A model generated the notes under the pieces. It ran no database searches. It had not been told where the DNA came from and saw nothing but the letters and a program-made list of their open reading frames with translations. Both the position numbers and the translations under genes were made by a program. A DNA stretch of 64,000 nucleotides, from contig NZ_BOOB01000001.1 in the NCBI RefSeq assembly GCF_016863015.1, positions 62,001-126,000 of the forward strand, in the 5' to 3' direction. Every line of letters begins with the position of its first letter. The stretch's first letter is position 1. Below, one piece after another: positions 6,429 to 55,679 of this stretch. The DNA comes from Microbispora amethystogenes. GTDB taxonomy: Bacteria; Actinomycetota; Actinomycetes; Streptosporangiales; Streptosporangiaceae.

Positions 6429-6431
6429 GTT

Positions 6432-9459: not shown

Positions 9460-9476
9460 CGTGTTGGTTCACCGCC

Positions 9477-9641: not shown

Positions 9642-9672
9642 TCTATAGGGGAGGCGGAGACAAGGAGGCCAG

Positions 9673-10656
9673 ATGCCCGCGGTGACCGAGGGGCAGCCCG
9701 CACCGGTCGCCAGTTTCGAGAGCAGCCGTGAGCTGCTCTTCGGGGTGGCGTACCGGGTGCTGGGCAGCGTGAGCGACGCCGAGGACGTCGTCCAGGAGGC
9801 GTGGCTGCGGTGGGACCGCGTCGACCACGCCAGGATCGCCGACCCCCGGTCCTTCCTCGTCCAGGTCACGACGAGGCTCGCCCTCGACCGGCTGCGGTGG
9901 GCGAAGGCCCGCAGGGAGGCGTACGTCGGGCAGTGGCTGCCCGAGCCGCTGCCGACCGCGCCCGCGATCGAGGACGGCGCGGAGATCGCCGACTCGGTCT
10001 CCGTGGCCATGCTCGTGGTGATGGAGACTCTCTCCCCGCTGGAGCGGGTCGTGTTCGTGCTCCGCGAGGCGTTCGAGTTCTCCTTCGCCGACATCGCGGT
10101 GATGGTCGGCCGGTCCGAGGCCGCGGTCCGGCAGCTCGCCCGTCGCGCCCGCTCGCACGTGCGGGAGCGGCGGCCCCGGTTCCGGCAGGACCGCGACGTC
10201 CGCAGGCGGGTGACGGAGCGCTTCCTGGCCGCCTGCCTGGGCGGCGACCTGCGGGCGCTGCTCGACCTGCTCGCCCCCGAGGTCACCTTGTGCATCGACG
10301 GGAACGGCCGCCGCGGCGTGGCCAGGAACCGGGTCGAGGGCGCGGAGAAGGTCGGTCGCCTGCTCGTCCGCGGCCTGCGCAGGGTCCTGCGCCCGGACGG
10401 CGCCGCGGTCGCCGCCACCGGCGACGCCCGTGACGACATCGGGGACGACATCGGGAGCGGATCCGTCGTGGACGTCAACGGCGGGCCCGCGGCGCTCATC
10501 ACCGCGGGGGACGAGCCGATCGCGGTGATCGTGGTCGACGTCGACCTCGCCGCCGACCGCGTCACGCGCATCTGGATCATCGCCAACCAGGACAAGCTCG
10601 GGGGCGTCGAGGGCCGGCGACCCGGAAGACCCAGGCCCGTCCGCGCCGCGGGCTGA
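9673..10656 (+). CDS. sigJ: ECF sigma factor, ECF41/SigJ type with C-terminal SnoaL-like domain
   Basis: 327 residues. Sigma region 2 (SSRELLFGVAYRVLGS to SFLVQVTTRLALDRL) covers about 15-85 and region 4 (LSPLERVVFVLREAFEFS to RQLARRAR) about 125-175. The linker has the ECF41 motif WLPEPL near residue 97. A C-terminal NTF2/SnoaL-like domain follows with the ECF41 motifs DGNGRRG and NQDKL, which in this group replace an anti-sigma factor. The start ATG is preceded by AAGGAGG. It has its own ECF41 promoter at 9615. Downstream are qcrA and qcrB after 27 bases. The symbol is by similarity to mycobacterial SigJ. Confidence 0.85.
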   Translation: MPAVTEGQPAPVASFESSRELLFGVAYRVLGSVSDAEDVVQEAWLRWDRVDHARIADPRSFLVQVTTRLALDRLRWAKARREAYVGQWLPEPLPTAPAIEDGAEIADSVSVAMLVVMETLSPLERVVFVLREAFEFSFADIAVMVGRSEAAVRQLARRARSHVRERRPRFRQDRDVRRRVTERFLAACLGGDLRALLDLLAPEVTLCIDGNGRRGVARNRVEGAEKVGRLLVRGLRRVLRPDGAAVAATGDARDDIGDDIGSGSVVDVNGGPAALITAGDEPIAVIVVDVDLAADRVTRIWIIANQDKLGGVEGRRPGRPRPVRAAG

Positions 10657-37387: not shown

Positions 37388-39355
37388 TCACCAGGGGCGT
37401 ACGAGCCGGGCGGGATCGAACCGGCCGTTCACCCGGGGGCCGGGCGGGTAGTTCAGAGTGATCTCGGTCAGTCTCCGCCCGGCCAGGTCGTCGCGGACCG
37501 CGCGGTAGCGCTCCGCGGCCCCGGACGCCCGGGAGTGCGGAGCGAGCGGGTGCCCGCCCAGGGCCCGCCCGTACCGGCTCACCTCCTCGACCCAGGCGGC
37601 GGGCTCCAGCAGGCCCGCGGCGGGCCGGGCCGCCCACCGGTGGACACCGGTGGACACGGGAAGGACCATGACAGCCGGAGCCGTGGAGGGGGAGAGGCGG
37701 CCGGCGAAGAACTCGTCGGCCCATCGTTCCGCCGCGTCCACCGCCGTCAGAGCGGGCAGCGGATCAGGCGCGTCCGGCGCGAGCCCCTGATCCAGCAGGA
37801 AGGCCGACCGGGTCACGAACTCCCCCGAGAGCCGCGGCAGCCGCTCCCGCACGTCGGCGACGAGGGTGAGCCCGTGCACGGGGAACCGCTCGCATCCGGT
37901 CATCCGCAGCCACGGCGTGCCGTCGCGGGGTCCCGCGCCCGGCCGCACCACCCGCAGCGCGCAGAACTCCACCGTCCTGAGGTACGCCGCGGCCTCCTCG
38001 GGCCCCGCCCCGCAGCCGGGGCAGGTGACGACCTCGACGGTGAGCGGGGGAGGGAAACGCGCCGTGCGGAGGAATCCCTCGGCCTCCCGGGTGGCGAGCC
38101 GGCGGAGGATCTCACCGGCCGATAGATCGCCGGAGGCGGCCGTTCGCCTCCGGTCCGCGGTCAGGCCGCGCGTCAGGCCCGCGACGCCCAGATCGGCCAG
38201 GGCCGCCCGAGCGTCACCGGTCAGCAACGCCCTGTCGGCGGCGGGCAACCCCGAGTCGATCCAGCTCGTCACCGCCGCCCGCCGCAGCGGACCGGCGAGA
38301 TCCGCACGCGCGCCGGTTGCAGGCCCCGTTCCGCGCCCGTTCTCAGGGCCGGTTCCGGCGCCGCTCGCGACATCGGCTCCCAGCAGGAACGCCGCCGCCC
38401 ACAGTTCCGCCGCGGTGCCCGGCGCCGTTCCGGCCTCCGCCAGGGCCCGCGCCCGGTCGCGGCCGCCGGAGGACGCGAGGTATTCCTCCAGACCTCCCAG
38501 GACGTCCGCCTGGTCGAGACCGAGCACGCCGCACCAGTCGCTCCATCGCCCGAAGGGATGCCGGACGAACTCCTCGCTCGTCGGCCGCAGAAAGCCGAGG
38601 AAGCAGGTGCCGAAGGCGTAGGTCACGGAGAAGTCCCAGGTGGAGGCGCCCTCCGCGCGCATCACCGCGCCCTTGTCGAAGCGCGGCGGCTCCCGCCAGC
38701 GGTCCGGGAGGAGGTCCGCGCTGGGCAGCAGGACCGTGGCGCGCCGCACGCCGTGATCGGTGTTGCCGGCGACGCTCGCGACCTCGTCGTGGTCGAGCAG
38801 GTGGGGCACGGCCGCCAGGACGAGGTGGTCACGCTCACGGAGGAAGAGATCGATCACCGTGTCGTCGTCGCGGATGTGGTCGGGAACTCCCGCCAGGTAG
38901 TCGCCGAGCTCCTTGGCCAGGCCGACCGGCAGGACGAGCCCCTGCGTGGGGACCCACTCGCCGGGGACCAGCCGCGCCCACGAGGCGCCGCCGGCCGCCG
39001 CCTGGCGGATCGCGTAGGAGTTGTAGGGCGAGTTCCAGTGGGCGTAGAGGGCGAGCGCGTCGTCCGGGCGGGCCGCGACCGCGGCCCGCAGATGGGCGGA
39101 GAACCCGTCCACGAGGAGCACGTCGTCCTGGAGGACGAGATGGTGGGTCGCGTCCGGGCTCCAGGCCGTCCACGCGCGCTTCGCCGTACGCAGCGGGCTG
39201 GGAAACGAGCCGGGGTCGGGGTCGGGGACCGGCACGAGCCGCAGCGGAGCGCACGCCTCGGCGATCCGGGGAATCCTGTCCCCTCTGGCCGGGTGGTACA
39301 TGACGGCGACGCTGATGCGCGGGAACCCGGAGGAACCGTCGAGCCGATCCGTCAT
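37388..39355 (-). CDS. large glycosyltransferase-like protein with uncharacterised C-terminal half
   Basis: 655 residues. The N-terminal ~200 look like a GT-A-type glycosyltransferase: SVAVMYHPARGDRIPRI at the start, HHLVLQDDVLLVDGF (DxD-like) near 90-105, and PNNSY-like turn NSPYNSYAIRQ. The remainder has no recognised domain; it holds CPGCGAG near 450 (a lone CxxC) and several Arg/Ala helices. Its ATG overlaps the stop of the GT2 gene (ATGA). It is the last gene in the operon. It may modify the operon's product with a sugar, or may have been recruited for another group transfer. Confidence 0.7.
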   Translation of the reverse strand: MTDRLDGSSGFPRISVAVMYHPARGDRIPRIAEACAPLRLVPVPDPDPGSFPSPLRTAKRAWTAWSPDATHHLVLQDDVLLVDGFSAHLRAAVAARPDDALALYAHWNSPYNSYAIRQAAAGGASWARLVPGEWVPTQGLVLPVGLAKELGDYLAGVPDHIRDDDTVIDLFLRERDHLVLAAVPHLLDHDEVASVAGNTDHGVRRATVLLPSADLLPDRWREPPRFDKGAVMRAEGASTWDFSVTYAFGTCFLGFLRPTSEEFVRHPFGRWSDWCGVLGLDQADVLGGLEEYLASSGGRDRARALAEAGTAPGTAAELWAAAFLLGADVASGAGTGPENGRGTGPATGARADLAGPLRRAAVTSWIDSGLPAADRALLTGDARAALADLGVAGLTRGLTADRRRTAASGDLSAGEILRRLATREAEGFLRTARFPPPLTVEVVTCPGCGAGPEEAAAYLRTVEFCALRVVRPGAGPRDGTPWLRMTGCERFPVHGLTLVADVRERLPRLSGEFVTRSAFLLDQGLAPDAPDPLPALTAVDAAERWADEFFAGRLSPSTAPAVMVLPVSTGVHRWAARPAAGLLEPAAWVEEVSRYGRALGGHPLAPHSRASGAAERYRAVRDDLAGRRLTEITLNYPPGPRVNGRFDPARLVRPW

Positions 39356-40587
39356 CGCTCCTCACTTTGGGTGGTCTCCGCCGAGGGCAGCCACCGGACG
39401 CGCCGGCCGATCCGGGCCGCCTCGCTCTCCAGGAGGTCCACCGCCCACCGGGGATAGGCGCGCAGGGAGGGGGCGAGCAGGCAGAGATCGAAGGTGGCGG
39501 GCTCCAGCAGCGTGCGGAAACCGTGCAGCGGCAGCACCTCGATGCCGGGGAAGTTCCGGCGCGCCTCCTGCGCGAGTCCGGGATCCGGCTCGACACAGAG
39601 GTCGCCGCCGTTCACGGCGTACAGGCAGTCGGCCCCGAACAGGGCCGTGGCGGGGCCGGGATCGACCGGCGGGCCGGACGGCCGGAGCCGGGCCAGGCCG
39701 ATCCGGTTCCGGTACGCGGCCCGCAACTCGGCGAGCCGCGGATGGAGCTCGTGCGCCCAGCAGACCGTGGAGACCTCGACGACCGGATCGGGGTGCTTCC
39801 GCAGCAGGAGCGCGGCGTGCTTCTCGTAGCTGGGGCGCAGCGCGGCGAGGTCGCGGGTGTGCGGGATCTCGACGCAGGCCGCCCGGCGGGCCAGGGTGAA
39901 CCTCAGCCCCTTCTCGTACAGGCGCCGGCCCAGCTCGACGTCCTCACCGCTCCAGCCCACGAAGTCGTCGTCGAAGCCCCCGGCCAGGTGGAAGTCCGCG
40001 GCGCCGACGGACACGTTGCCGGTCCAGTAGAAGATCCACGGAGCGGCGTACCGGTCGATGTCCTCTCCGAGGCTCCGGTAGCACGGCTCCCGCATGTCCC
40101 GGTGCCGCCCGCTCCGGGTGAACCGGTCGATCAGCTCGTCGGGGGGCTCGTCGAGATCGCCGGTGGAGACCCGGTTCGCCGGGTCGTGGTCGTAGCCGAA
40201 GATGTAACCGATCACGGCCCGGCCGCCGCCCTCGTGCGCGGCCAGGTGCCCGCTCAGCAGGTGGCGGGAGGCGAGCATCCCGCTGTCGAGGAACACGAGG
40301 ATCCGCCCCTCGGCCCGCGCCGCGCCGAGGTTGCGTGCCTGCCCGGCCCGGAAGCCGAGGTCCCGCTGGTAGACGTATCCGATCCGGAGGGTCCCGGCAT
40401 GGCCCTCGGCCACGAGCCGGGTGTCGTCACTCGACCCGTCGTCGGCGACGATCACCTCGTACCGGTCGCGGGGCATGTCCTGGTCGGCCAGGGAGCGCAG
40501 CGTGCGGTCCAGCTCCCGCGCCCGGTTGTAGGTGGGGATGACGACCGACACCTCCGGTGCGCCGTGCCCGGCCGGCCGCTCAGCCAA
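39352..40587 (-). CDS. family 2 glycosyltransferase with extra C-terminal region
   Basis: 411 residues. GT2 signature: VSVVIPTYNRARELDRTLRS near 13-32, VIVADDGSSDDT near 44, the metal-binding region ILVFLDSGML near 95, and GWSGEDVELGRRLYEKG near 205-220 (acceptor-site ED motif). The last ~130 residues (ATALFGADCLYAVNGGD onward) are not part of GT2 and resemble no family I can name. TTG start at 40587 with GGAGG 6 bases upstream, overlapping the substrate-binding protein gene by 8 bases. It probably glycosylates the operon's product. Confidence 0.82.
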   Translation of the reverse strand: MAERPAGHGAPEVSVVIPTYNRARELDRTLRSLADQDMPRDRYEVIVADDGSSDDTRLVAEGHAGTLRIGYVYQRDLGFRAGQARNLGAARAEGRILVFLDSGMLASRHLLSGHLAAHEGGGRAVIGYIFGYDHDPANRVSTGDLDEPPDELIDRFTRSGRHRDMREPCYRSLGEDIDRYAAPWIFYWTGNVSVGAADFHLAGGFDDDFVGWSGEDVELGRRLYEKGLRFTLARRAACVEIPHTRDLAALRPSYEKHAALLLRKHPDPVVEVSTVCWAHELHPRLAELRAAYRNRIGLARLRPSGPPVDPGPATALFGADCLYAVNGGDLCVEPDPGLAQEARRNFPGIEVLPLHGFRTLLEPATFDLCLLAPSLRAYPRWAVDLLESEAARIGRRVRWLPSAETTQSEER

Positions 40588-41608
40588 CGAGGGCCTCCTT
40601 CGCCAGGCTGGTGTCCAGCACCGAGGAGACGGGAGGCAGCGAGCTCATGCCCCGGGCCCGCAGACCGGCGTAGACGGGACCCGCCAGCCGGTCGGGGTCG
40701 ATCGAGCCCAGGCCGCGATCACCGGCGGAGCCGCGGATGAGCGCGCCCTGCACCTCGTTCTCCCGCCGGGCCGCCGCCGGGTCGAGCCCGAGGTCCTTGC
40801 CGTACTTCTCCACGGCCAGCCTGGTCCCGAGCGCCGGGTCCTTCAGGTTCTGCCGGTATCCGCGGATCACCGCGCGCAGGTAGCCGACGAAACGCGCCCG
40901 GTCGGCGGCGAGGTCGGCGCGCCTGACCGCCATGACGAGCGCGTAGTCGGGCATGCCCAGCTGTCCCTGGGTCACGCTGACCACGCGTACGCCCTGCTGC
41001 TCCAGCGCGATCGGCTGGGCGGTGACGTAGCAGGCCATGACGTCGCAGTCCCCCTTGGTGAGCGCCGTGGTGCCGGCGCCGACCGGAACCCGTTCGTACC
41101 GGACGGGCAGTTTGTTGACCTTCAGGATCGCCTCCACCATCACCTCCGCGCCGGGGGACAGGCCGATGCGCCGGCCCACGAGATCCTTGGCGGTGCGCAC
41201 CGGGTTGGACGCGAGGCTGACGAAGCCGCCCGGGCTCTCCTGGAAGACGGCGCCGATCGCGACCAGGTCGGCCTCGCTCTCCCGGGCCTTGACGAGGGCG
41301 CCGAAGTCGACCAGTGCGACGTCCGCGCCTCCCGCGGTGACGACGCTGACGGCGTCGGGGATGTTCGGCCCGCCGGCGAGAAGCGGCGCCGACAGTCCTT
41401 CCTCCTTGAAGTACCCCTGTTCCTCGGCGATGTAGAAGCCGGCGAACGTCACGGTCTTCAGCCAGGATAACTGGGTACGCACCACCTTCCCGCCGTCCGC
41501 GGACCCGCCGCCCGGCGACGGAGAACACGCCGTGAGCAGCCCCGCGGCGCTCATTCCGCCGAGGGCCACGGTGGTGCGCAGGAACCCGCGCCGGGAGAAC
41601 TGGTCCAC
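40580..41608 (-). CDS. ABC importer substrate-binding lipoprotein (NMT1/SsuA-like)
   Basis: 342 residues from GTG 41608. Twin-arginine motif SRRGFLRTT at 5-13 and lipobox LLTAC with Cys28. The mature part is a periplasmic-binding fold of the NMT1/THI5/SsuA type: LSWLKTVTFAGFYIAEEQGY near 48, DVALVDFGALV near 100, AKDLVGRRIGLSPG near 145. Relatives bind HMP, riboflavin, taurine, nitrate or alkylsulfonates. Together with two permeases and an ATPase it makes a complete importer. The ligand is unknown; an aromatic or sulfonated precursor is possible. Confidence 0.85.
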   Translation of the reverse strand: MDQFSRRGFLRTTVALGGMSAAGLLTACSPSPGGGSADGGKVVRTQLSWLKTVTFAGFYIAEEQGYFKEEGLSAPLLAGGPNIPDAVSVVTAGGADVALVDFGALVKARESEADLVAIGAVFQESPGGFVSLASNPVRTAKDLVGRRIGLSPGAEVMVEAILKVNKLPVRYERVPVGAGTTALTKGDCDVMACYVTAQPIALEQQGVRVVSVTQGQLGMPDYALVMAVRRADLAADRARFVGYLRAVIRGYRQNLKDPALGTRLAVEKYGKDLGLDPAAARRENEVQGALIRGSAGDRGLGSIDPDRLAGPVYAGLRARGMSSLPPVSSVLDTSLAKEALVG

Positions 41609-41637
41609 TATGAGTCCGTCCTTTTCTTGGTGCTGTT

Positions 41638-42399
41638 TCAGTGCTTGTGCAGGGAGAGGCGGGCGCGGGTCCTCCGCTCGGCGAGGTCCATGACCTCGTA
41701 CGCGAGCAGGGAACTGGCCAGCGAGGTCAGCAGGATCGCCCACACCGTGGGCGTGTCCAGGAGCCCCTGGGAGCGCGCCAGCAGAGCGCCGAGCCCGTCG
41801 TTGGCGGTGAGGAACTCCGCGGTGAGCGTGGCGAGCACCCCGACACAGGAGGTGAGCTTGGCCGCCTGCACCAGTTCCGGCAGGGCGACGGGAAGCGAGA
41901 CGTGCCACAGGAGCCTGCCCCGGCCGCCCCCGGTGACCCGGACGACGTCGGCGAGGGCGGGCGGGATCCGCCACAGCGCGGCGCCGACCAGGGCGAAGGA
42001 GGGAAAGAAGCTGAGGATCGCCGCGGTGGCCACCGCGGCCGGCCCGCCGTAGCCGAAGAACGTGGCGATCAGCGGGCTCAGGGCGAGCACCGGCACGCAC
42101 CGCATGATCATTCCGGCGGCGCGGGTGAGCGGCTCCACCATCGGGAGGAGGTGCGAGACGATCGCGAGCGCCGTGCCGGACGCCAGTCCCAGCGCGGTGC
42201 CGGCGACGGCACGCGACACGGTGAGCGCCAGCGCGCCCGGGTCCGCGACCTTGGCGGCCAGGCTCTCCGCCACCCTCGCCGGATCGGGCACCAGCAGCGC
42301 CGGCACGGCGCCGCTCGCGCGCACCAGGACCCAGGCAACGGGGAGGACGACCAGGACGACGCCGTATCCGAGCAGCCGGTGCGCACCTGCGCGGCTCAT
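41638..42399 (-). CDS. ABC importer permease (SsuC/TauC-like), subunit 1
   Basis: 253 residues with about six hydrophobic segments and the permease EAA loop VVRVTGGGRGRLLWHVSLPVALPEL near 165-190. Its ATG overlaps the stop of the second permease (ATGA). Forms the channel with the neighbouring permease. Confidence 0.87.
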   Translation of the reverse strand: MSRAGAHRLLGYGVVLVVLPVAWVLVRASGAVPALLVPDPARVAESLAAKVADPGALALTVSRAVAGTALGLASGTALAIVSHLLPMVEPLTRAAGMIMRCVPVLALSPLIATFFGYGGPAAVATAAILSFFPSFALVGAALWRIPPALADVVRVTGGGRGRLLWHVSLPVALPELVQAAKLTSCVGVLATLTAEFLTANDGLGALLARSQGLLDTPTVWAILLTSLASSLLAYEVMDLAERRTRARLSLHKH

Positions 42400-43160
42400 G
42401 CGGCGCTCCCGGTGGTTCCGCGGCGGCGGTGGACCGTCCGGGCCAGCCGGGCGAACACCGCGTAGACGATCGAGGACATCCCGACGACGAGCACGCTGAC
42501 CGTCGCCACCAGGTCGTCCTGCCCGTCCCGCAGCCCCGAGACCAGCAGGACGCCGAGCCCGCGCTCGGCGCCGAACCACTCGCCGATGAGCGCTCCGAGA
42601 AGGGCTCCGGGCACGGCGAACTTGATCCCTTCGACCACGTACGGGAGAGCGCCCGCCGCCTCGACCAGGCGCAGGCGGCGCCACCGCCCCGCGCCGTGCA
42701 CGGCGAGCAGGTCGCGCAGCCCCCGGGGGACGGCCTTCAGCCCGGCCTCGGCCGCGGAGAAGACCGGCAGGGCCACGCTGATCGCGGCGGCGATCACCGG
42801 TATGGCCTCGCGTTGCACGGACGAGGTCAGCAGCGGCCCGAGCGCGACCAGCGGAAGGGCGTAGCAGATCAGCATGAGGAGCTGGAGCGGCCCGCGCGCT
42901 CCGGCCGCGGCGCCGGCCGACCAGGCCGCCACGACCGCGAGTGCGGTGCCGGCGACCAGGCCGTACGCGGCCTCCAGCAGGGTGACGCCGGCCGCCTCGG
43001 TCAGCAGCTCCCGGCGGCCGGTCAGCACGGGCCAGATCGACGCCGGGCCGGCGGCGCCGAACCGGTCCCACACCAGCAGGGCGGCGGACACCAGCAGCAC
43101 CCCGCCCAGGAGGGCCGTGGCCGTCCGGTGAGCGCGGCCGCGGAGAGCTGGACTAGGCAT
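42396..43160 (-). CDS. ABC importer permease, subunit 2
   Basis: 254 residues from ATG 43160, which overlaps the ATPase stop by 8 bases; an upstream in-frame start at 43175 would overlap more. Six or so hydrophobic segments and the EAA-type loop LLAVHGAGRWRRLRLVEAAGALPYV near 165-190. It differs clearly from the other permease, so the importer is heteromeric. Confidence 0.85.
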   Translation of the reverse strand: MPSPALRGRAHRTATALLGGVLLVSAALLVWDRFGAAGPASIWPVLTGRRELLTEAAGVTLLEAAYGLVAGTALAVVAAWSAGAAAGARGPLQLLMLICYALPLVALGPLLTSSVQREAIPVIAAAISVALPVFSAAEAGLKAVPRGLRDLLAVHGAGRWRRLRLVEAAGALPYVVEGIKFAVPGALLGALIGEWFGAERGLGVLLVSGLRDGQDDLVATVSVLVVGMSSIVYAVFARLARTVHRRRGTTGSAA

Positions 43161-43938
43161 CGAGCGCCTCGACACACTCCTGTACGGCGTGCCGGAACGT
43201 CTCGTCCGGGACCTCGGGCCGGGGGCGTGCCATCGGCACCGTGATCTCCCTGACGATGGTGGACGGGCGACCCGACATGACCACGACGCGGTCGGCCAGC
43301 AGCACCGCCTCCTCGACCGCGTGGGTGATCAGAACGGTGGTCGGGCGGACGACGGTCCAGACGCGTTCCAGCTCACGGTTCAACCGGCGCCGGGTGATGG
43401 CGTCGAGTGCCCCGAAGGGCTCGTCCAGGAGCAGCAGCGACGGCTCCATGACCAGCGCCCGCGCCAGCGCGACCCGCTGGCGCATCCCGCCGGACGCCTC
43501 GTGGGGGCGCAGGTGGGCGAGGCTCGCCAGGCCGACGAGCTCCAGGATCTCGTCGACGCGCTCCCGGTCCGGCCGCCGTCCCGCGACGCGGTAGGCGAAC
43601 TCCACGTTGCGCCGCAGCGAGGCCCAGGGGAGGAGCGCCGGGTCCTGGAAGGCCATGCCGATGCGGTGTTCCCGCGCCAGCCGGTCCGGTGGACCGCCGC
43701 AGCAGGTGATCGTGCCGTCGGTGGGCGTCTCCAGCCCGGCGATCATCCGGAGCAGCGTCGTCTTCCCGCAGCCCGACGGGCCGATGATCGCGAGGAACTC
43801 CGAGGTGCGGACCTTCAGGCTGACGTCGTGCACGGCCCGCACGGCCCGCCGGCCGGAACCGTAGCTCTTGGACAGCGCCTGGCCGTGGATCGCCACATCG
43901 CTCCCGGCCGTCGAGGCTCCGTCGTCGTGTGCGCTCAC
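43153..43938 (-). CDS. ABC importer ATPase (SsuB/TauB-like)
   Basis: 261 residues from GTG 43938 (overlaps the Rieske gene stop, GTGA). Walker A GPSGCGKTTLLRM near 57-69, Q-loop MAFQDPALLPW, signature ASGGMRQRVALARAL near 150, Walker B SLLLLDEPFGALD, H-loop LITHAVEEAV. It powers the importer whose permeases and binding protein follow in the operon. Confidence 0.92.
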   Translation of the reverse strand: MSAHDDGASTAGSDVAIHGQALSKSYGSGRRAVRAVHDVSLKVRTSEFLAIIGPSGCGKTTLLRMIAGLETPTDGTITCCGGPPDRLAREHRIGMAFQDPALLPWASLRRNVEFAYRVAGRRPDRERVDEILELVGLASLAHLRPHEASGGMRQRVALARALVMEPSLLLLDEPFGALDAITRRRLNRELERVWTVVRPTTVLITHAVEEAVLLADRVVVMSGRPSTIVREITVPMARPRPEVPDETFRHAVQECVEALDA

Positions 43939-45002
43939 CGAGCGGCCCCGTGCGCGAGGCGGACGCCCGGCCATCGGTCGCCGGGAGGGCCGGCCTCCTC
44001 CACGTAGGACTGCCACCTCGACCGCAGCAGCCGTTCGGCCGCCGCGGCGACCGGGTTGAGCTCGCAGCGCGGTTCGTCCGGCCGGGTCTCCCAGGCGATC
44101 TGCTCGCGCACCCCGATCCAGGCGTCCTGTTCCTGGATCCGGGCGAGCACCAGACGGCGGAAGAACGGCTCGGCGAACTGGCGCAGGCGCCTGGTGCCCC
44201 GCCGGGCCTTGATGTACAGCGTGATGTAGACGGCGACCCGGTCCCGGCTCTCCGGCCGGAAGAAGGCCCACACCACCATCCCGTCCCCGAGACGCGCGTG
44301 GTGGTGGGGATAGTCGTAGTACACCTCCAGCGGGTAGGTCACCGTGGAGGCGTCACGGTCGGAGCCGAGCAGCATCCGGAGCGTACGCTCCGCCCGGCTC
44401 TGCCCGCTGGTCACCTCGTACGCCCCGAAGACGCGGCGCTCGTCGCTCTCGAGGTCGCGCAGGCGCAGCCGTGACCAGGGCTGATACTTCCGGTGCAGGT
44501 GGAAGTGGGTGTAGTCCATCCCGTTGACCAGGCCGACGCCGTAGTGGTTCGGAAAGACCCGGTCCTGCCGGAACGAGAACCACTCGCCGCCGTCCCACTG
44601 CGAGGTGTCCGGCGGCTGCGGAGGCAGCGGGTCGGCGGGCTCGGGGACGAACCAGACGAGGCCGCTGCGCTCGACGACGGGAAAGCTCCGCACCCGCAGG
44701 CGGGGAAGCGGCGCCTCCTCCTCCCAGTAGGGGATCCGGGCGAGCGCGCCGTCCGGGCCGTACTCCCATCCGTGGTAGGGGCAGACGATGCGGCAGTCAC
44801 GCACCTCGCCCTCGTGGAGCGCGACGCGGCGGTGCGCGCAGGCGTTGTCGAGACAGTGGACCGCACCGTGAACGTCACGGAAGACGACGAAGGAACGGCC
44901 GAGGAAACGGACCTCCCTGGCCTGTTCCGGACCCAGTTCGTCGCTGCGGCAGGCCGGATACCAGCAGCGGGGGTCCACACCGATGTCGCAGAGGTTGCTC
45001 AA
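43935..45002 (-). CDS. Rieske non-heme iron oxygenase
   Basis: 355 residues from TTG 45002 (AGGAG 5 bases upstream); an upstream GTG at 45035 lacks a ribosome site. Rieske ligands Cys55-x-His57 and Cys74-x2-His77 (CAHRRV, CPYHGWEYG). The mononuclear iron region is VNGMDYTHFHLHRKYQPW near 155-172. It resembles single-component-like oxygenases of the vanillate/ketosteroid or choline group, needing a separate reductase that is not in the window. It should hydroxylate, demethylate or oxidatively rearrange the pathway intermediate. Confidence 0.85.
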   Translation of the reverse strand: MSNLCDIGVDPRCWYPACRSDELGPEQAREVRFLGRSFVVFRDVHGAVHCLDNACAHRRVALHEGEVRDCRIVCPYHGWEYGPDGALARIPYWEEEAPLPRLRVRSFPVVERSGLVWFVPEPADPLPPQPPDTSQWDGGEWFSFRQDRVFPNHYGVGLVNGMDYTHFHLHRKYQPWSRLRLRDLESDERRVFGAYEVTSGQSRAERTLRMLLGSDRDASTVTYPLEVYYDYPHHHARLGDGMVVWAFFRPESRDRVAVYITLYIKARRGTRRLRQFAEPFFRRLVLARIQEQDAWIGVREQIAWETRPDEPRCELNPVAAAAERLLRSRWQSYVEEAGPPGDRWPGVRLAHGAAR

Positions 45003-45021
45003 TCTTTCTCCTGTTGTGCGT

Positions 45022-45855
45022 TCACGCGGCGGCACGGATCAGGCAGCGCTGCAGCCAGCGGTCCGTGCCGTCGTAGCGCGGTCGGTAGGCGGTGCGGCCG
45101 TGAACGAGGTGGGTGTTGTCGATGAGCAACAGGTCCCCGGTCCGAAGGGTGACCGTGACGGTCCGCTCCTCGATCCCCGCGCGCAGCGCCCGCAGCGGCC
45201 GCTCGTACTCCTCACCGGCCGCGCACAGCGCCTCGGCGTAGTTGAAGCGGAGCCGGCCTCGCCACTGCGACGCCACCGGTTTGGGTTCGGTGAGCGTGCC
45301 GCCGGGCAGGCGGAAGGCGAAGGCCGGCTCGGCCAGCGCCCGGCGGGTGCCGGGGTCGAGCCCCGCCCACACGTCGAGCAGGTCGCAGACCAGCGTGCCG
45401 ACCCTCTCGTCCGCACGCAGGCAGAGCAGGACGAGGGCGTCCGGGGTGTTCGGACGGAACGCCGTCTCGGTGTGCATCTCCAGGTACACGGCGTTGCTGG
45501 CGTTCTGCCGGGACGCCTCCCCGCGGAGCGGGTACAGGTTCTGCACCCGCGCGCCCGCGTGCCAGTCCGCGAAGGAGATCACCTCGCCGACCAGGGACGC
45601 GAGCGCGAGCAGCGGCGACTCGGTCCCGATGGGGTGCCCCAGCTCGGCGTAGGGGCGGTCGGGCGTCGGCGGAAGGACCGGCGGCACCCGGACCCCGGTG
45701 ACGTGCAGGAGGCCGGCCTCGCCCAGGGTCCGGCCGAACCGCGTCGCGGCCCGCGCCAGCTCGGGCCCGAGGCCGTACGATCGCTCATCGCCGCCTACGG
45801 CGGTGTCCGCGGGCAGGGTCAGCAGCGCCCGGCGGTGCGGGCCGGGCTCAGGCAA
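45022..45855 (-). CDS. clavaminate-synthase-like Fe(II)/2-oxoglutarate oxygenase
   Basis: 277 residues. Iron ligands HxE at 128-130 (EMHTETAF) and a distal His in LVHGRTAY near 251; the 2OG-binding Arg is in GTDRWLQR. The context HTETAFRPNTPDALVLLCLR resembles AsnO/VioC, which hydroxylate free or carrier-bound Asn and Arg at C-beta. The TTG start overlaps the radical SAM gene stop by 8 bases. It probably acts on an amino-acid-derived intermediate; regiochemistry is unknown. Confidence 0.87.
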   Translation of the reverse strand: MPEPGPHRRALLTLPADTAVGGDERSYGLGPELARAATRFGRTLGEAGLLHVTGVRVPPVLPPTPDRPYAELGHPIGTESPLLALASLVGEVISFADWHAGARVQNLYPLRGEASRQNASNAVYLEMHTETAFRPNTPDALVLLCLRADERVGTLVCDLLDVWAGLDPGTRRALAEPAFAFRLPGGTLTEPKPVASQWRGRLRFNYAEALCAAGEEYERPLRALRAGIEERTVTVTLRTGDLLLIDNTHLVHGRTAYRPRYDGTDRWLQRCLIRAAA

Positions 45856-46963
45856 GGCTGAATACCCCCGAGAAGACGGGGAGCCGGTGGTGCTCGATGA
45901 TCTCGTTGAACCTCACGTGCACGCGGATGAGCTCGTCGAGGTCGTAGACGAAGGGAATCCGCTGCTGCTTGACCACGAACGCGGTGAAGACCGTGGGAGA
46001 GGGCACGACCCCGAGTTCGGCGATCGTCTCCAGTCCACGCAGGGTCTCCTCGGGCGGCTCGATCCCCGCGAGCAGGCAGCTGCCGACGTTTCCGGCGCCG
46101 AACACCTCCACGGCGTCGGTGAAGATGTCCACGTAGTCCGCGAAGGTGATGTCGGCCTTGTATCCGTGGATGAGGCGCCGCCGGTAGTCCGCGTTCACCA
46201 CCTCGATCCCGCTGTTGAAGCGGGAGACGCCCGCGTCGCGCAGGGTGGTGAGGTAGTCGATCCGGCGGGCCCGGTTCCCGATGAGGCTCGGCGGGATGAC
46301 CTGCGAGACGTAGATCCCCTCCGTGTAGCCGGCGTCGCGCAGCGCCGTGGCCATCCGGCAGTGGCGCTCCAGCTCCAGCGCCTCGTTCGTGATGCTGCCG
46401 GTGCACAGCCAGACGATGTCGTACTTGGTGCGGAAGTCCTCCGCGTGGTCGTCGACGTAGCGGAGGCACTCGTCGAAGTTGGCCTTGTAGCTCCCGGTCT
46501 TCGTCTGCTGGATGGCGAGCACCTCCCACTCGCTCTCCTTGAAGCAGAAGTCGCAGGAGTACGCGCAGTAGGTGTGGTAGTCGAAGACGAAGCTGCGGGT
46601 GCCGTTCTCGCGGAGCAGCCCGAAGTTGTACATGCCGGTGGGCGCCCGGTCGTCGTCGACGAACTGCTCGCAGGCCACCTCGCGCTCCTCGTCGTTGATC
46701 AGCGCGCTGAGCCGGGTGCCGTCGAAGCAGAAGGGGGAGGCCTGGTTCACCCGTACGGTGATCTTCTTGCGGAAGCCGGGGCCGCTGATCACGATCTCGA
46801 TCCGCGGCAGCACCTGGCCGAGGATCGGCAGCCGGATGTCCGTGGTGGCGAAACGCACTCCGTCCCGGAGGGCGCCGAGCCGGAACACCTCCTCGATCCG
46901 CACGAGATCGAGATTCTTCAACGTCAGCGGGATGTGGGAGTCACGAGCGGCCGCACGTCTCAT
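45848..46963 (-). CDS. radical SAM enzyme
   Basis: 371 residues. The 4Fe-4S cluster motif CxxxCxxC is Cys133, Cys137, Cys140 (TYCAYSCDFCFK), placed after a ~130-residue N-terminal domain, later than in most family members. Downstream are the SAM-barrel landmarks DIVWLCTGSITNEA, SRFNSGIEVVNADYRRRLIHG and VGSCLLAGIEPPEETL. No SPASM or B12 domain is visible. Start ATG with AAGGA 6 bases before. It likely catalyses a C-C, C-S or skeletal rearrangement step specific to this operon; no characterised homologue recognised. Confidence 0.82.
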   Translation of the reverse strand: MRRAAARDSHIPLTLKNLDLVRIEEVFRLGALRDGVRFATTDIRLPILGQVLPRIEIVISGPGFRKKITVRVNQASPFCFDGTRLSALINDEEREVACEQFVDDDRAPTGMYNFGLLRENGTRSFVFDYHTYCAYSCDFCFKESEWEVLAIQQTKTGSYKANFDECLRYVDDHAEDFRTKYDIVWLCTGSITNEALELERHCRMATALRDAGYTEGIYVSQVIPPSLIGNRARRIDYLTTLRDAGVSRFNSGIEVVNADYRRRLIHGYKADITFADYVDIFTDAVEVFGAGNVGSCLLAGIEPPEETLRGLETIAELGVVPSPTVFTAFVVKQQRIPFVYDLDELIRVHVRFNEIIEHHRLPVFSGVFSLA

Positions 46964-47002
46964 GAGAGTCCTTCGGGAAGGGGAACTACCGGGCCGTGGG
47001 AG

Positions 47003-48142
47003 TCATTTGTCCAGGATGCGGAGGGCGTTCTCGCCGAGCAGGGCGCGGCGCAGGTCCTCGGGCAGGGACGCCAGAACCGGCTCCCACTCCTCCCGCGGCC
47101 GGAAGGGCGTGCCGGGGTGGGGGAAGTCGGTGGCGAGGAGCACCCGGGAGCGGAGTTCTCCGGGGAGCCGGTCGAGACGCTCGCCGAGGCCGGTCGAGAA
47201 GAAGAAGGCGTCGCGGTCGTACAGGTAGTGCCGGGGCGGGTGATCGGGGGTGTCGCGCCCGGTCTCCCGCAGCGTCTCGAACGACTCCTGCGCGCGCTCC
47301 AGCCAGGCGGGCAGCCAGCCGATGTTGCACTCGTGGAAGGCGAACCGCAGGTCCGGGAAGCGGTCGGGGACCCGCGCGTCGAGCAGCCCCGCCAGGAAGA
47401 GCTGACCGGGCAGGATCTCGTTGACGTGGTTGAAGAACGCGCCGGCGCCGGGCGCGCGCACGCTGGTCGGGAGGGGCAGCGGCAGCAGGTGCGGCACGGC
47501 GACCTTGTGCAGGTGGATCACCAGGCCGTGGTCCTGCGCGGCCGCCCAGAACGGGTCGAGCCGGGCGTCGAGGACCGTCACCCCGTGGGGAAGCATCACG
47601 TGCCGGAAACCCGCCCCGGCGAGCGCGGCCACCTCCTGCGGAAACGGCGCCTCGGGGGACAGCGCCAGCTGGCCCACCGGGACGAGCCTGCCGGGGGCCG
47701 CCGAGGCGAAGTCCGTCATCCAGCGGTTGTAGGCGCGCAGGTGGGCGACCGCGTAGGGAGAGGCGCAGTCCACCTCTCTGGGCCAGATCAGCCCGAGGGA
47801 CGGGAAGAGCAGCGTGGCCTCGACGCCCTCGGCGTCCAGCCACCGCACCCGTGCCTCACCGTCGTAGGACGCCGGTGGGCACGACTCCATGAAGGGGGCG
47901 TACTCCGCGCGTTCCAGGGTGTTCCATTCCACGATGGGCTGGGCCGGGTCGTAGGGGACGCCGCCGAGCCGGCGGATGAGCCGGGAGGGACTCCCGTCGA
48001 TCAGGAGGCGGTCGCCGTCGGACGGATCACGCTCCACCCGCAGGCAGGTCTCCCGGAACGCGGGGTCGACGTACTCCTCCCACAGTGTCCCGGGTTCGAT
48101 GACATGGCCGTCCGCGTCGACGACCGGGTAGCCGTTCCACAT
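47003..48142 (-). CDS. amidohydrolase family 2 protein (decarboxylase/hydrolase)
   Basis: 379 residues. The N-terminal metal-binding start VVDADGHVIEP near 8-18 matches ACMSD-type amidohydrolases. Other barrel landmarks are the His-rich strand LVIHLHKVAVPHLL near 208 and ATDFPHPGTPF near 345, with the conserved Asp in DFPHP. Members decarboxylate or hydrolyse small carboxylated aromatics or amides. It follows the upstream 2OG oxygenase gene after 33 bases and precedes the radical SAM gene. Confidence 0.82.
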   Translation of the reverse strand: MWNGYPVVDADGHVIEPGTLWEEYVDPAFRETCLRVERDPSDGDRLLIDGSPSRLIRRLGGVPYDPAQPIVEWNTLERAEYAPFMESCPPASYDGEARVRWLDAEGVEATLLFPSLGLIWPREVDCASPYAVAHLRAYNRWMTDFASAAPGRLVPVGQLALSPEAPFPQEVAALAGAGFRHVMLPHGVTVLDARLDPFWAAAQDHGLVIHLHKVAVPHLLPLPLPTSVRAPGAGAFFNHVNEILPGQLFLAGLLDARVPDRFPDLRFAFHECNIGWLPAWLERAQESFETLRETGRDTPDHPPRHYLYDRDAFFFSTGLGERLDRLPGELRSRVLLATDFPHPGTPFRPREEWEPVLASLPEDLRRALLGENALRILDK

Positions 48143-48175
48143 GCTTTGCGTCCTCGCGTCGGGGAGCCCGGCCCG

Positions 48176-49213
48176 CTACGGCTGGGCGGCGGGCCGGCTG
48201 AGCGCCTTCTGGTAGTCGTCGGGGTAGTTCGCGTAACGCCGATCGGAGACCAGGCGGCCGGTCTCCCGGTCGCCGTCCAGCAGGCGGGTGGTGACGAGCA
48301 TGCGTTGCAGCCAGCGATCGGTCCCGTCGTAGCTCGGGACGATGGCGTTGCGCCCGTGGACGACCCGCGAGTTGTCCAGGACGAGCAGGTCTCCCGTGAC
48401 CAGCGGGACGTCGGCGGCGACGGCCAGGACCCGCCGGGTCAGCTCGTCCAGCGTCCGCTGCGACTCCTCGTCGATCGCGACCAGGTCGCCGACGTACTCG
48501 ACCACCCGCGTGCCGTCCCGGTAGCTGATGATCGGCTGCGGCTCGGTGAGCCCGCGCCCGTCGATGACGACCACCGGGTTGTCGGTCTCGAACGCGTACC
48601 GTGCCTGGGCGAGCACCGCCAGGTCGGCGTCGTCCAGGGCGTCGACCACCCGGGTGATGTCGGCGACCCGCGTCTTGGCCTGACCGGTCGGGTCGCCCCG
48701 CAGACAGAGCAGGGCGAGATAGTCGGGGGACACGTCGCGGAAGGGCGTCTCGGTGTGCAGGAGGAACTCCACCGCGTTGGATCCGAACTGCAGATCGCGG
48801 TGGGCCCGGATCGGGTACTTGTTGTGGACCAGATGCCCGGAGTCCCACTCCAGGTAGCTGAACGGCTCGCCGAGAAGGTCCACCACGCCGGCGAGCAGCG
48901 CCTCGGTGCCCACAGCGGCGAGGTCGGGCAGCGAGGCGAAGGACCGTCCGGGCGTGGGCGGCAGATCGTGGACGATCGGCAGGTTGCGGAGGAGCAGCGC
49001 GCCGGGCGCGCGGCGGATCCGGAGGGCCTCCACCGCGGCGCGCACCCGTGCGGGGACCACGTCCCGTCTCCCGCGGACCTGCGCCAGGAAGGTCTCGAAC
49101 TCGTCGTACGGATTGGCGTCGACGGAGCCGATGCCGGCGCGCAGGGCCTCCCTCTCCGCGTCCGTAAGCTCGACGACGGGGATCTCTGTCAGCGGCTCAG
49201 TTGATTCGGACAT
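48176..49213 (-). CDS. clavaminate-synthase-like Fe(II)/2-oxoglutarate oxygenase
   Basis: 345 residues, first gene of the operon. Iron ligands HxE at 153-155 (LLHTETPF), distal His in VVHGRNAIVPS near 301 and 2OG Arg in GTDRWLQR. LTEPQPIISYRDG is near 230. Closest in character to the AsnO/VioC/clavaminate synthase group but about 70 residues longer than its 45 kb paralogue. The two share the GTDRWLQR end, suggesting successive oxidations of the same type of substrate. Confidence 0.86.
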   Translation of the reverse strand: MSESTEPLTEIPVVELTDAEREALRAGIGSVDANPYDEFETFLAQVRGRRDVVPARVRAAVEALRIRRAPGALLLRNLPIVHDLPPTPGRSFASLPDLAAVGTEALLAGVVDLLGEPFSYLEWDSGHLVHNKYPIRAHRDLQFGSNAVEFLLHTETPFRDVSPDYLALLCLRGDPTGQAKTRVADITRVVDALDDADLAVLAQARYAFETDNPVVVIDGRGLTEPQPIISYRDGTRVVEYVGDLVAIDEESQRTLDELTRRVLAVAADVPLVTGDLLVLDNSRVVHGRNAIVPSYDGTDRWLQRMLVTTRLLDGDRETGRLVSDRRYANYPDDYQKALSRPAAQP

Positions 49214-49477: not shown

Positions 49478-52219
49478 TCACCCGGGCGTCCGCCTGCCGG
49501 TGCTCACGCGCAGCGCGAGCTCGGTGCGGCTGCGCACCCCGAGTTTCCGGTAGACGCTGGACAGATGGCTCTCCACCGTCTTCACGCCGATCGCCAGCTC
49601 CTTGGCGATCTCCTGGTTGGTCCGGCCCTCGGCCGCCAGCGCGACGACCTGCGCCTCCGACACGGTCAGGCGGTCGGGTGCGGAGAGCCGCGGCCGCGGC
49701 TCACCCCGCCCTGCCCACCACTCGGCGCCGATCTTGGTGAAGACCCTGGACGCCCGTTCCATGGTGCGCCGCGCGGCCTCCCGGCGGCGCAGGCGGCTCT
49801 GTGACCTGCTGAGCGCGAGCAGGGTGCGGCCGAGCTCGAAGGGCATGCCGGCGGCGGAGAACTCGGCCACAGCGGCCTCCAGCTCGGCGGCTCCCCGTTT
49901 CGGCGATCCGGTGGCGGTCAGCAGCACGCCGTGCGCCCGGGCGGCGAGGCCCCGGCCCAGCGGCCGGTCGACGACGCGCAGGTGCCGCTGGATCCTCTCG
50001 ACGCGCTCGGCCGCCTGCTCGTACTGTCCGACCTGCACCAGCGCCTCGACGTGGTCGGCGCCCGCCGTCGGGCAGACCACGTCGGGGACGACGCCGAGAG
50101 AGCGGGACGTCTGCTCGACGGCGTCCAGGTGCCGGACGGCCGACATCGGATCGCCGTCGGACAGGTCGACGAAGCCGAGCAGCGCGCGCACCGAGAGCGC
50201 GGCCAGCCTGTTGCCCGAGGCCTTGGCGATCCGCAGCCCTTCAGCGGCCAGCAGCCGGGCCCTGCCCAGCTCGCCGTGCATGGCGAGCAGGAGTGCCTCG
50301 GCGAACAGGGCGGCGGACGTGGGGACGCCGGTCGCCTCCACCGCGCGTGCGGCCAGGTCCGCGTAGCGCGCCGCCGCGCGCAGATCACCGGCGAGGCACT
50401 CCACCTCGGCGGCCCAGGCCATCCCCCAGTCGGCGCAGGCCACGGTGCCGGTCTCGACGGCCGCGGTGCGCAGGGCGGCGAACACGGCCCGCGCCTCGGG
50501 CAGGTCCCCCAGGCAACGGCACAGGAAGCCGTACAGGTGCGGGCCCACGAGAGGCCGGCGATCCACGGGGTTGTGACAACGAGGCGCGGGCATGGCCGCC
50601 GGGGGCGGGGCGCCGCGCATGAGCTCGATCGCGGACAGCACGGCGACGGCCTCGCCGCGCGCGTCCTCGTTCCCGGCCGCCTCGGTGAGGCGCAGCAGTT
50701 CCCTGGCGTGTCCCTGGGCGGCGGCGAGATCGCCTCTGTGCACGCAGTAGTACGTCAGGCCGGCCGTGATCGGGATCAGCAGGTCGGGCCGCCCGGCGGC
50801 CTCGGCGCGGCCGCGCTCCAGACGCGTGATCGAGCCCGGGACGTCGCCCGAACCAAAAGCCGCCTGTCCCAGGAGGAGGAGCATCTCCGCCCGGACCGGC
50901 CCGGGCGGGCAGCGGCGCAGCGCGTCCTCCAGGACGACCAGGGCCCGCGATCCGTCTCCTCCGGAGATCAGGTGACCGGCGGCGTCGCGCCAGCGGCGCA
51001 GGCCGAGCTCGCGCTCCCCGGGAGAGGTGAGCCGGGCGGCGTGCGCCGTCATGTCGCCCGCGGTGAGCGGGTCGCCGCGGGCGGCCGTCAGTGCGGCGGC
51101 GGCGGCGAGCGTGTCGGCCACGACCGGGTCGGTACGGCCGGCCGTCGCGGCCAGGTGCCGCGCGCGTTCCTCCACGTCGGTCACCACCCGGGCGAGCCGC
51201 TGATGCATCTCCCGGCGTCGCAGCGGCCCCGCGACCTCGAACACCACGTTCCGGAACAGCGGGTCGCGGAAGCCGAGGGACTCGTGTTCGAGCACGACGA
51301 GTCGCCGGTTGATCGCCTCCGCCAGCCCCGTCAGCGAGCCGGTCACGGTCCGGACGAGAGCGATCGTGGGCGTCTCGGCACAGGCGACCAGCAGCACCGC
51401 CTCCGCCGCCGCCGGAGGCAGCGCGCGGACGCGCCCGCGGAGCAGGTGCCGCAGGCTCTCCGGCAACGGGAGGTCGCCGGACGGATAGGACCGCTCGCTC
51501 CAGGCCCGGGCCGTCTCCAGGCCGAACAGGGGATTGCCGCCGCACGCCCGGTGCAGCCAGCGCAGCAGGGGCCGGGGAAAGGCCGTGCCGTAACGGCTCT
51601 CCACCACGGCGGCCAGGGCGAGGGGAGCCAGGGGCCCGACCTCCCAGCAGGTGACCCGTTCGGGGGGCAGCACCCGGACCAGCGTGGGCCAGGCGTCGCC
51701 CTCCGTCCCCGCGCCGAGCGTGACGAGCAGCTTCACGGGCTCGACGGTCAGGCGCCGGAGCACGAACGTGAGCACGACCTCGGTCGCGGAGTCCAGCCAC
51801 TGGAGGTCGTCGAGGGCGATCAGCACGGGTCCTTCGGCGGACAGGTTCCTGATCAGGTCCAGCACGGCCAGCGCCACCGCGCGCTGGTGGGGCGGCACCC
51901 CGGGGGCCTGCTCCCACCACAGGGTGCCGGCCAGCACGCCGCGCAACGGCTCACGCAGGCCGCGTACGGCCGCGGAGCCCTCCAGGCCGGCGAAGAGGTC
52001 GCCGAGGCCGACATAGGACAGGCCGGTCTCGCTCAGGTCGGACCGGCAGGAGAGGACCTGGAACGACCGCTCGTTCGCGGCGGCCAGGGCGGCGGACCAG
52101 AGGGTGGACTTGCCGACGCCCACGTCTCCGCCCAGCACTCCCATGCAGGGGCCGGAAACGTCGGCGTCGAGCCACGTCTCGATCGCGCGGGCCTCGTCGA
52201 CCCTGCCGGGGACGTCCAA
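49478..52219 (-). CDS. LuxR-family LAL transcriptional activator
   Basis: 913 residues. N-terminal STAND ATPase: Walker A GGDVGVGKSTLW near 29-40, Walker B-like VLIALDDLQWLDS near 125, then long TPR-like helical repeats. C-terminal LuxR HTH LTVSEAQVVALAAEGRTNQE, IAKELAIGVKTVESHLSSVYRKL within the last ~70 residues. TTG start at 52219 behind AGAGG. LALs activate antibiotic clusters. It lies just upstream of the 11-gene operon on the same strand and divergent from the fused exporter, so it probably controls both. Confidence 0.9.
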   Translation of the reverse strand: MDVPGRVDEARAIETWLDADVSGPCMGVLGGDVGVGKSTLWSAALAAANERSFQVLSCRSDLSETGLSYVGLGDLFAGLEGSAAVRGLREPLRGVLAGTLWWEQAPGVPPHQRAVALAVLDLIRNLSAEGPVLIALDDLQWLDSATEVVLTFVLRRLTVEPVKLLVTLGAGTEGDAWPTLVRVLPPERVTCWEVGPLAPLALAAVVESRYGTAFPRPLLRWLHRACGGNPLFGLETARAWSERSYPSGDLPLPESLRHLLRGRVRALPPAAAEAVLLVACAETPTIALVRTVTGSLTGLAEAINRRLVVLEHESLGFRDPLFRNVVFEVAGPLRRREMHQRLARVVTDVEERARHLAATAGRTDPVVADTLAAAAALTAARGDPLTAGDMTAHAARLTSPGERELGLRRWRDAAGHLISGGDGSRALVVLEDALRRCPPGPVRAEMLLLLGQAAFGSGDVPGSITRLERGRAEAAGRPDLLIPITAGLTYYCVHRGDLAAAQGHARELLRLTEAAGNEDARGEAVAVLSAIELMRGAPPPAAMPAPRCHNPVDRRPLVGPHLYGFLCRCLGDLPEARAVFAALRTAAVETGTVACADWGMAWAAEVECLAGDLRAAARYADLAARAVEATGVPTSAALFAEALLLAMHGELGRARLLAAEGLRIAKASGNRLAALSVRALLGFVDLSDGDPMSAVRHLDAVEQTSRSLGVVPDVVCPTAGADHVEALVQVGQYEQAAERVERIQRHLRVVDRPLGRGLAARAHGVLLTATGSPKRGAAELEAAVAEFSAAGMPFELGRTLLALSRSQSRLRRREAARRTMERASRVFTKIGAEWWAGRGEPRPRLSAPDRLTVSEAQVVALAAEGRTNQEIAKELAIGVKTVESHLSSVYRKLGVRSRTELALRVSTGRRTPG

Positions 52220-52337: not shown

Positions 52338-52424
52338 TGAAACCGCCAAGAATGTCACGTTAACTTCCTTCGGTGGAGCGGCCGCGAGTACCGCGTGCAC
52401 GGGCGGGCCTACGGACATCCCTCT

Positions 52425-52436
52425 TACCAAAAGGTA
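52425..52436. promoter_or_regulatory. dyad TACC-AAAA-GGTA
   Basis: Perfect 4-bp inverted repeat with an AAAA spacer in an AT-rich stretch on the exporter side. Together with the dyad at 52322 it suggests regulated divergent transcription. Confidence 0.35.
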
Positions 52437-52523
52437 CTTCTCCCTTTGAATAGCCATAATTCGGTCGATCCTGAAGTGGCCGATCCCGCGTTCGCCGGTC
52501 CTTCCGTCCGGGCGCCGCTGACC

Positions 52524-55639: not shown

Positions 55640-55679
55640 GACAACTCCACAGACGAGAACCGTAGGTATCCCTGTCCGG

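Follow-up and report, generated by a model that had tools for sequence, protein, structure and literature searches.

A Conserved Radical SAM Gene Cluster of Microbispora amethystogenes with a Second Aspartyl-tRNA Synthetase: A Candidate Pathway for an AspRS-Targeting Metabolite

Introduction

What is made by a gene cluster that combines a radical SAM enzyme, two 2-oxoglutarate (2OG) oxygenases and a Rieske oxygenase, and why does it encode an aspartyl-tRNA synthetase (AspRS)? The question is raised by a window of 64,000 nt, meaning the whole stretch of DNA analyzed here, from Microbispora amethystogenes (assembly GCF_016863015.1, contig NZ_BOOB01000001.1, positions 62,001-126,000 of the forward strand). 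An earlier interpretation (the sequence-only reading) described an eleven-gene operon at 37,388-49,213 and suggested a dedicated pathway in which an amino acid or derivative may be imported, oxidized several times and glycosylated. The conserved unit extends beyond this operon and covers ∼22 kb (37,388-59,676), and the AspRS within it, here termed AspS2, is the best hint of cluster function.

We propose, with a probability of about 0.55, that the product of the cluster inhibits AspRS and that AspS2 is a self-resistance enzyme; the product would be a small antimicrobial and is probably amino-acid-derived. Such a target and such a role are suggested because unlike AspRSs are paired with one biosynthetic core, a pattern more to be expected for genes of resistance than for those of a biosynthetic pathway. 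The core that is shared most widely consists of a 2OG oxygenase (2OGa), an amidohydrolase (AHH) and the radical SAM enzyme (rSAM), in the order 2OGa-AHH-rSAM, plus AspRS. A second 2OG oxygenase (2OGb) and the Rieske oxygenase follow in the window.

Results

Different Aspartyl-tRNA Synthetases Accompany One Core

AspS2 is an archaeal-type AspRS (Table 1) whose closest solved structure is AspRS2 of T. thermophilus (1.2e-114). The possibility that it is the only AspRS of the organism was ruled out by a separate bacterial-type enzyme elsewhere in the genome (G000:C43, 697.9 bits), with which AspS2 shares a local identity of ∼30%. The extra AspRS lies within the conserved biosynthetic block and is found in two of 15 Microbispora genomes, exactly the two that contain rSAM, for which our arithmetic gives a chance probability of 1 in 105.

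The rSAM gene has a patchy distribution, being present in seven of 297 genomes of the family Streptosporangiaceae, in one of 396 genomes of a phylum-wide sample (namely that of M. amethystogenes itself) and, by means of a degenerate pattern, at 13 loci out of 56 candidate stretches from the GTDB collection. Viral contigs gave 15 matches to the rSAM pattern with no relative among them. The distinct records with rSAM number 17, comprising 10 non-rhizobial and seven rhizobial ones, the latter from five rhizobial genomes and two Mesorhizobium plasmids. An AspRS is located within 8 kb of rSAM in all 10 non-rhizobial genomes, which represent three phyla. The 14 rSAM proteins placed in a tree form one family, and the nine that are AspRS-linked make up one side of a branch with 97/96 support.

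The linked AspRSs, on the other hand, are of at least three kinds across the lineages. In a tree of 29 rows, those of archaeal type split into two distinct clades, with support of 99/100 and 100/100. That of a gammaproteobacterium (L022) is bacterial-type, is 40% identical to a second AspRS of the same genome and has active-site changes, and that of a member of the Pyrinomonadaceae (L019) is a divergent bacterial-type protein. Like that of M. amethystogenes, genome G694 contains a separate housekeeping AspRS. The Pyrinomonadaceae genome contains another AspRS-like gene, of archaeal type, on the same contig; a further candidate for its housekeeping enzyme (G693:C4) was rejected as its sequence reads as LysRS.

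In the Pyrinomonadaceae locus the AspRS gene adjoins one for an S66-type peptidase, which matches Lmo1638 (4.5e-65) and MccF (9.9e-52) and also, at 5.2e-23 and 1.3e-19, chains of muramoyl- and murein-tetrapeptide carboxypeptidases. MccF hydrolyzes the aminoacyl-nucleotide amide of processed microcin C, an aspartyl-adenylate mimic (excerpts of PMC9239234). The peptidase appears to be MccF-like and so of a kind known to confer immunity against mimics of aspartyl-adenylate. An MccF-type peptidase was not found among the window cluster proteins scanned.

The close association of AspRS with the core could also mean that it is a biosynthetic enzyme, supplying Asp-tRNA or activated aspartate for the product. 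In three genomes of the Actinocorallia group its gene follows rSAM at a distance of ∼0.13 kb, the catalytic motifs of AspS2 are intact, and seryl-tRNA is reportedly used in the synthesis of valanimycin. Moreover, excerpts of PMC9437257 describe aminoacyl-tRNA synthetase-like proteins that produce bioactive compounds. A pathway enzyme should nevertheless be orthologous from one lineage to the next and the linked AspRSs differ in type, the Pyrinomonadaceae copy has lost both catalytic arginines, there is no known tRNA-dependent transferase among the scanned cluster proteins, and rhizobia contain rSAM without AspRS. Hence we consider a biosynthetic AspRS unlikely.

Several observations weigh against AspRS inhibition and self-resistance. 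No AspRS was found near the rhizobial rSAM genes in any of seven stretches (15-25 kb, some of them short), and the rhizobial contexts suggest that rSAM may have a broader role. Actinocorallia sp. API 0066 retains only rSAM and AspRS, with no AHH relative at 1e-20. The AspRS-like protein of the Pyrinomonadaceae locus (L019, 15,370-17,214) has lost an arginine and a glutamate of what we take to be motif 2 and the arginine of what we take to be motif 3; because these arginines are missing it could hardly replace a working AspRS, and it is possibly a non-catalytic paralogue. The two Sphaerisporangium genomes discussed below gave no evident separate bacterial-type AspRS with the query used, which the sensitivity of that query may explain. 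Finally, among 120 genomes of the family, 36 carry an AspS2-like gene, and only four of these 36 have rSAM.

The last point is also what would be expected if the metabolite were unrelated to AspRS and AspS2 were a general accessory synthetase, for example one directed against the AspRS inhibitors of other microbes, that joined the cluster for some other reason. The 32 genomes with AspS2 but without rSAM are consistent with this, as are the 20 AspS2 contexts without the cluster that were inspected. In these there was no relative of 2OGa, AHH, rSAM, 2OGb or the Rieske oxygenase at 1e-10, six had a generic match to the importer ATPase and one a match to part of the regulator, and no neighboring family was common to more than four. 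The lack of core relatives in these contexts also counts in favor of AspRS inhibition and self-resistance. However, several lineages show the linkage to rSAM, each time with AspRSs that differ in type between lineages, and an MccF-like gene is present in the Pyrinomonadaceae locus. We regard an accessory role as improbable.

A Dedicated Cluster That Extends Beyond the Operon

All 11 operon genes are found in four genomes of two genera, those of M. amethystogenes, M. triticiradicis, S. corydalis and S. rufum, and because of this recurrence the operon is not a chance arrangement. Both Sphaerisporangium species contain the operon, the regulator, the NodIJ-like exporter, AspRS, ABC1 and ABC2, with a Gfo/Idh-type gene between 2OGb and the Rieske gene. 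The Pyrinomonadaceae locus reads 2OGa-AHH-rSAM-2OGb-Gfo/Idh-Rieske-MccF-like-AspRS. Conservation of at least six of the genes across genera therefore holds for two Microbispora and two Sphaerisporangium genomes (all 11) and, as the run 2OGa-AHH-rSAM-2OGb-Gfo/Idh-Rieske, for Pyrinomonadaceae, and it supports the earlier proposal of a dedicated pathway. Shorter forms are 2OGa-AHH-rSAM in A. populi and Streptacidiphilus, AHH-rSAM in genome G103 and rSAM by itself in API 0066, all with AspRS directly behind rSAM, and AHH-rSAM followed by three other genes and then AspRS in the gammaproteobacterium.

The features of the cluster are listed in Table 1. The LuxR-type regulator, the three exporter genes and the AspRS were absent from the sequence-only reading, whose eleven genes are real but whose boundary was too short. 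The fused NodIJ-like exporter is 71-91% identical, and in the same position, in three relatives. ABC1 is found in two of 15 Microbispora genomes and is 72-77% identical in the two Sphaerisporangium species; ABC1 and ABC2 match each other's positions at 46-48%. It is nearly certain that 37,388-59,676 represents one dedicated cluster.

Table 1. Features of the conserved cluster in the window, in order of position.
Feature	Coordinates	Strand	Basis
Large protein, 655 aa, no family assigned	37388..39355	-	63-90% identical in three relatives
GT2 glycosyltransferase	39352..40587	-	Pfam 82.2 bits
NMT1/THI5-type substrate-binding protein	40580..41608	-	Pfam 114.5 bits; PDB 4nmy, formylaminopyrimidine-binding 3ix1
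ABC importer permease 2	41638..42399	-	Pfam BPD_transp_1
ABC importer permease 1	42396..43175	-	Pfam BPD_transp_1
ABC importer ATPase, taurine/sulfonate/nitrate type	43153..43938	-	Pfam; NCBIfam matches listed below cut-off
Rieske non-heme iron oxygenase, terminal component, TTG start	43935..45002	-	Pfam 80.7 bits; SdmA-like below cut-off; PDB Rieske oxygenases
2OGb, second AsnO-group 2OG oxygenase, TTG start	45022..45855	-	Pfam TauD 61.7 bits; AsnO 3e-24
rSAM, radical SAM enzyme	45848..46963	-	Pfam Radical_SAM exactly at cut-off; NF045502 79.5 bits and TIGR04043 47.0 bits (each under its cut-off)
AHH, Amidohydro_2 metal hydrolase, PtmU3/DitZ-like	47003..48142	-	Pfam 71.5 bits; PtmU3 5.4e-19
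2OGa, Fe(II)/2OG oxygenase, AsnO/VioC/clavaminate-synthase group	48176..49213	-	Pfam TauD 63.1 bits; AsnO 3.6e-32
LuxR-type regulator with AAA domain (LAL type)	49478..52219	-	Pfam GerE, AAA_16; 61-91% identical in three relatives
NodI/DrrA-like ATPase fused to NodJ/ABC-2 permease, predicted exporter	52395..54320	+	Pfam; NCBIfam matches listed below cut-off
AspS2, archaeal-type AspRS paralogue	54341..55642 (start 55,642 or 55,639)	-	Aspartate--tRNA(Asn) ligase model NF003483, 554.6 bits (cut-off 353)
ABC1, fused permease/ATPase, predicted exporter	55970..57859	+	NCBIfam matches listed below cut-off
ABC2, second exporter half (predicted)	57856..59676	+	65-76% identical in both Sphaerisporangium species

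The extent of the unit is also evident from a related Microbispora genome (G119), the matching DNA of which is 89-96% identical to the window. There, window position 37,557 is joined directly to 59,339, such that 37,558-59,338 is missing as one block. We infer that this block was lost by deletion because G119 still has the ends of the two outermost cluster genes; elsewhere, further and shorter stretches also distinguish G119 from the window. None of the four Sphaerisporangium flank stretches searched yielded the outer genes of the window (for a GH30 enzyme, an extracytoplasmic function (ECF) sigma factor and an AAA ATPase). The GH30-like glycoside hydrolase, which has a CBM2 domain, is encoded just outside the cluster at 35,597-37,324, and its DNA is retained in G119.

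Within the operon, all 11 open reading frames (ORFs) are on the minus strand, intact and in the order given by the sequence-only reading, and have a coding-like third-position GC content of 0.91-0.95. With the chosen starts, which are TTG or GTG in six genes, six of the 10 junctions overlap (by 8, 4, 23, 4, 8, and 4 nt). At the other four the genes are separated by 33, 39, 19, and 29 nt. The earlier statement that most junctions overlap by 4-8 bases was thus slightly generous, as five of the 10 do, and the spacing suggests a single transcript. Pfam supports every domain that had been named (two 2OG oxygenases, Amidohydro_2, Radical_SAM, Rieske, importer, and GT2) except for the "GT-like" label of the last gene. 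No operon protein scored above an NCBIfam cut-off among the matches listed (for the ATPase, the best 25 of 192).

Core Enzymes and the Importer

The rSAM protein is highly conserved, with an identity to the window copy of 58-96% across three phyla. Its CX3CX2C motif (C133/C137/C140) has cysteines that are invariant across 14 aligned rows, and its structural model (pLDDT 77) includes a beta-rich N-terminal domain. A sequence comparison with solved structures gave no relative up to E 0.1, and the best 50 matches of a fold search were to generic radical SAM proteins only (LipA, BioB, NifB, AprD4, HydG; TM-scores <0.6). Relatives of AHH (44-60% identity) are present in five of 11 further rSAM genomes and adjoin rSAM in all five, and the 2OGa orthologue adjoins AHH-rSAM at loci L014/L021, L018, and L019.

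AsnO is the nearest solved structure for both 2OGa and 2OGb, in agreement with the earlier comparison of the two to AsnO/VioC, and for this reason an amino-acid-like substrate, or one derived from an amino acid, is reasonable. The same cannot be said for a central role of import and glycosylation. Relatives of the importer, of GT2 and of the large protein were not found in 13 other stretches around rSAM genes, which restricts their observed occurrence to the Microbispora/Sphaerisporangium form. The large protein, described previously as GT-like, has no Pfam match above cut-off and none in NCBIfam up to E 0.01, and its fold model is poor (pLDDT 47) and unfit for a structure search, so that the name is unsupported.

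A complete importer inside the operon would fit an uptake-and-degradation or salvage pathway, to which AspRS and the exporters would be accidental neighbors. Enzymes of the 2OG, Rieske and Amidohydro_2 types are often catabolic, and AspS2 is common in the family. The core, however, is more widespread than the importer, and the block with AspRS and exporters is both lost and conserved as one unit. In addition, a LAL-type regulator, exporters and a patchy distribution (seven of 297 genomes) fit a specialized metabolite, and the linkage to AspRS recurs in three phyla. A catabolic function is distinctly unlikely in our judgment.

Comparison with Known Systems

The clusters for albomycin, mupirocin, and indolmycin are similar in having a distant second copy of an essential synthetase within a biosynthetic cluster and the housekeeping copy elsewhere. 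They differ in that the synthetase here is AspRS, of types that vary by lineage, and presumably also in their biosynthetic enzymes. Microcin C is comparable in its target, which would likewise be AspRS, and in the MccF-like peptidase of one relative (L019), but the cluster described here uses radical SAM, 2OG and Rieske enzymes. A ThiF-like MccB adenylyltransferase was not found among the cluster proteins scanned, which run from the large protein to ABC1.

The rSAM protein is a distant relative of MSMEG_0568 of the Nit1C nitrilase cluster, yet its TIGR04043 score of 47.0 bits is well below the cut-off of 303.7, and there is no nitrilase among the cluster proteins scanned. A plasmid search gave 404 records that match rSAM (371 of them from Klebsiella), nearly all over a short stretch, and 17 of the 20 listed carry an MSMEG_0568-family radical SAM annotation. 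The oxygenases of the AsnO, VioC, and clavaminate synthase pathways are of the same group as 2OGa and 2OGb. The NCBIfam equivalogs listed are nevertheless all far below cut-off (for the VioC/clavaminate synthase/GntD equivalog, 152.4 bits at best for 2OGa and 129 for 2OGb, with a cut-off of 345), and no nonribosomal peptide synthetase or beta-lactam enzyme is among the cluster proteins scanned. AspRS, rSAM, and AHH gave no match in PADLOC, and a description of the cluster was not recognized in the literature searched, which consisted of open-license PMC papers.

Other Contexts of rSAM and AspRS

On the AR02 and AR10 plasmids of Mesorhizobium, which come from root-nodule isolates, queC-queD-queE lie ∼0.6 kb upstream of rSAM (L078 and L079, 9,583-13,116), and ORFs that by eye resemble queC and queE are 3-5 kb upstream at L025. 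It is possible that the rhizobial rSAM is linked to 7-deazaguanine chemistry. The nearest 2OGa relative in Bradyrhizobium (42%) is on another contig than rSAM, beside genes for a PhnW-type 2-aminoethylphosphonate transaminase and for NTP-transferase-like, PhnY-like oxygenase and aldolase-like proteins (L080 and L081, ∼4,000-10,600), and a phosphoenolpyruvate mutase was not recognized by eye among the ORFs listed there.

The three genes between rSAM and AspRS in the gammaproteobacterium (L022, 5,769-8,899) encode an APH-family kinase, a protein with a pyruvate-kinase barrel and, with a score under its cut-off, an HPr-kinase-like protein. In Streptacidiphilus melanogenes (L018) 2OGa reads as two pieces, one with a stop (7,768-8,774), and the apparent interruption of its AspRS gene (11,445-11,886) corresponds to a stretch of undetermined bases (N) in the database entry. 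At a Streptosporangiaceae locus (L072, 9,061-12,142) an archaeal-type AspRS-like gene directly adjoins a bacterial-type AspRS gene.

Discussion

If the product does target AspRS, it would most simply be a mimic of aspartate or of aspartyl-adenylate. 2OGa, AHH, and rSAM would assemble its core, starting from a small precursor that resembles an amino acid; 2OGb, the Rieske oxygenase and, in the relatives, the Gfo/Idh-type oxidoreductase would oxidize the core further, and GT2 and the large protein might decorate the product in Microbispora and Sphaerisporangium. The exporters would pump the product out of the cell, the NMT1-type importer would either take up the precursor or recapture the product, and the LuxR-type regulator would switch the cluster on. 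The archaeal-type AspS2 would then sustain tRNA charging while the normal AspRS is blocked, in the manner of the second SerRS, IleRS, and TrpRS of albomycin, mupirocin, and indolmycin producers. In those producers, second synthetase copies that are ∼30% identical provide protection (excerpts of PMC9437257), a level similar to that between AspS2 and the bacterial-type AspRS of M. amethystogenes.

The natural product for which inhibition of AspRS itself is described is microcin C, and tobramycin is described as acting via tRNA-Asp (excerpts of PMC7916415). We suggest, as a tentative extension at somewhat less than even odds, that Actinomycetota, Acidobacteriota, and Pseudomonadota share a family of AspRS inhibitors distinct from the microcin C type. 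A core of radical SAM, amidohydrolase and 2OG enzymes would build these compounds with no MccB-like enzyme involved. The lineages would have recruited different AspRSs, and one of them an MccF-like peptidase, for self-protection, and a rhizobial branch would use rSAM in a different way.

As the predicted target and the predicted resistance gene can both be named, the cluster is directly testable, and the highly conserved rSAM is a ready subject for enzymology. If the proposal is correct, a second and unrelated chemistry against AspRS would provide a new antibacterial scaffold, and one biosynthetic core would have been paired with different resistant synthetases according to lineage.

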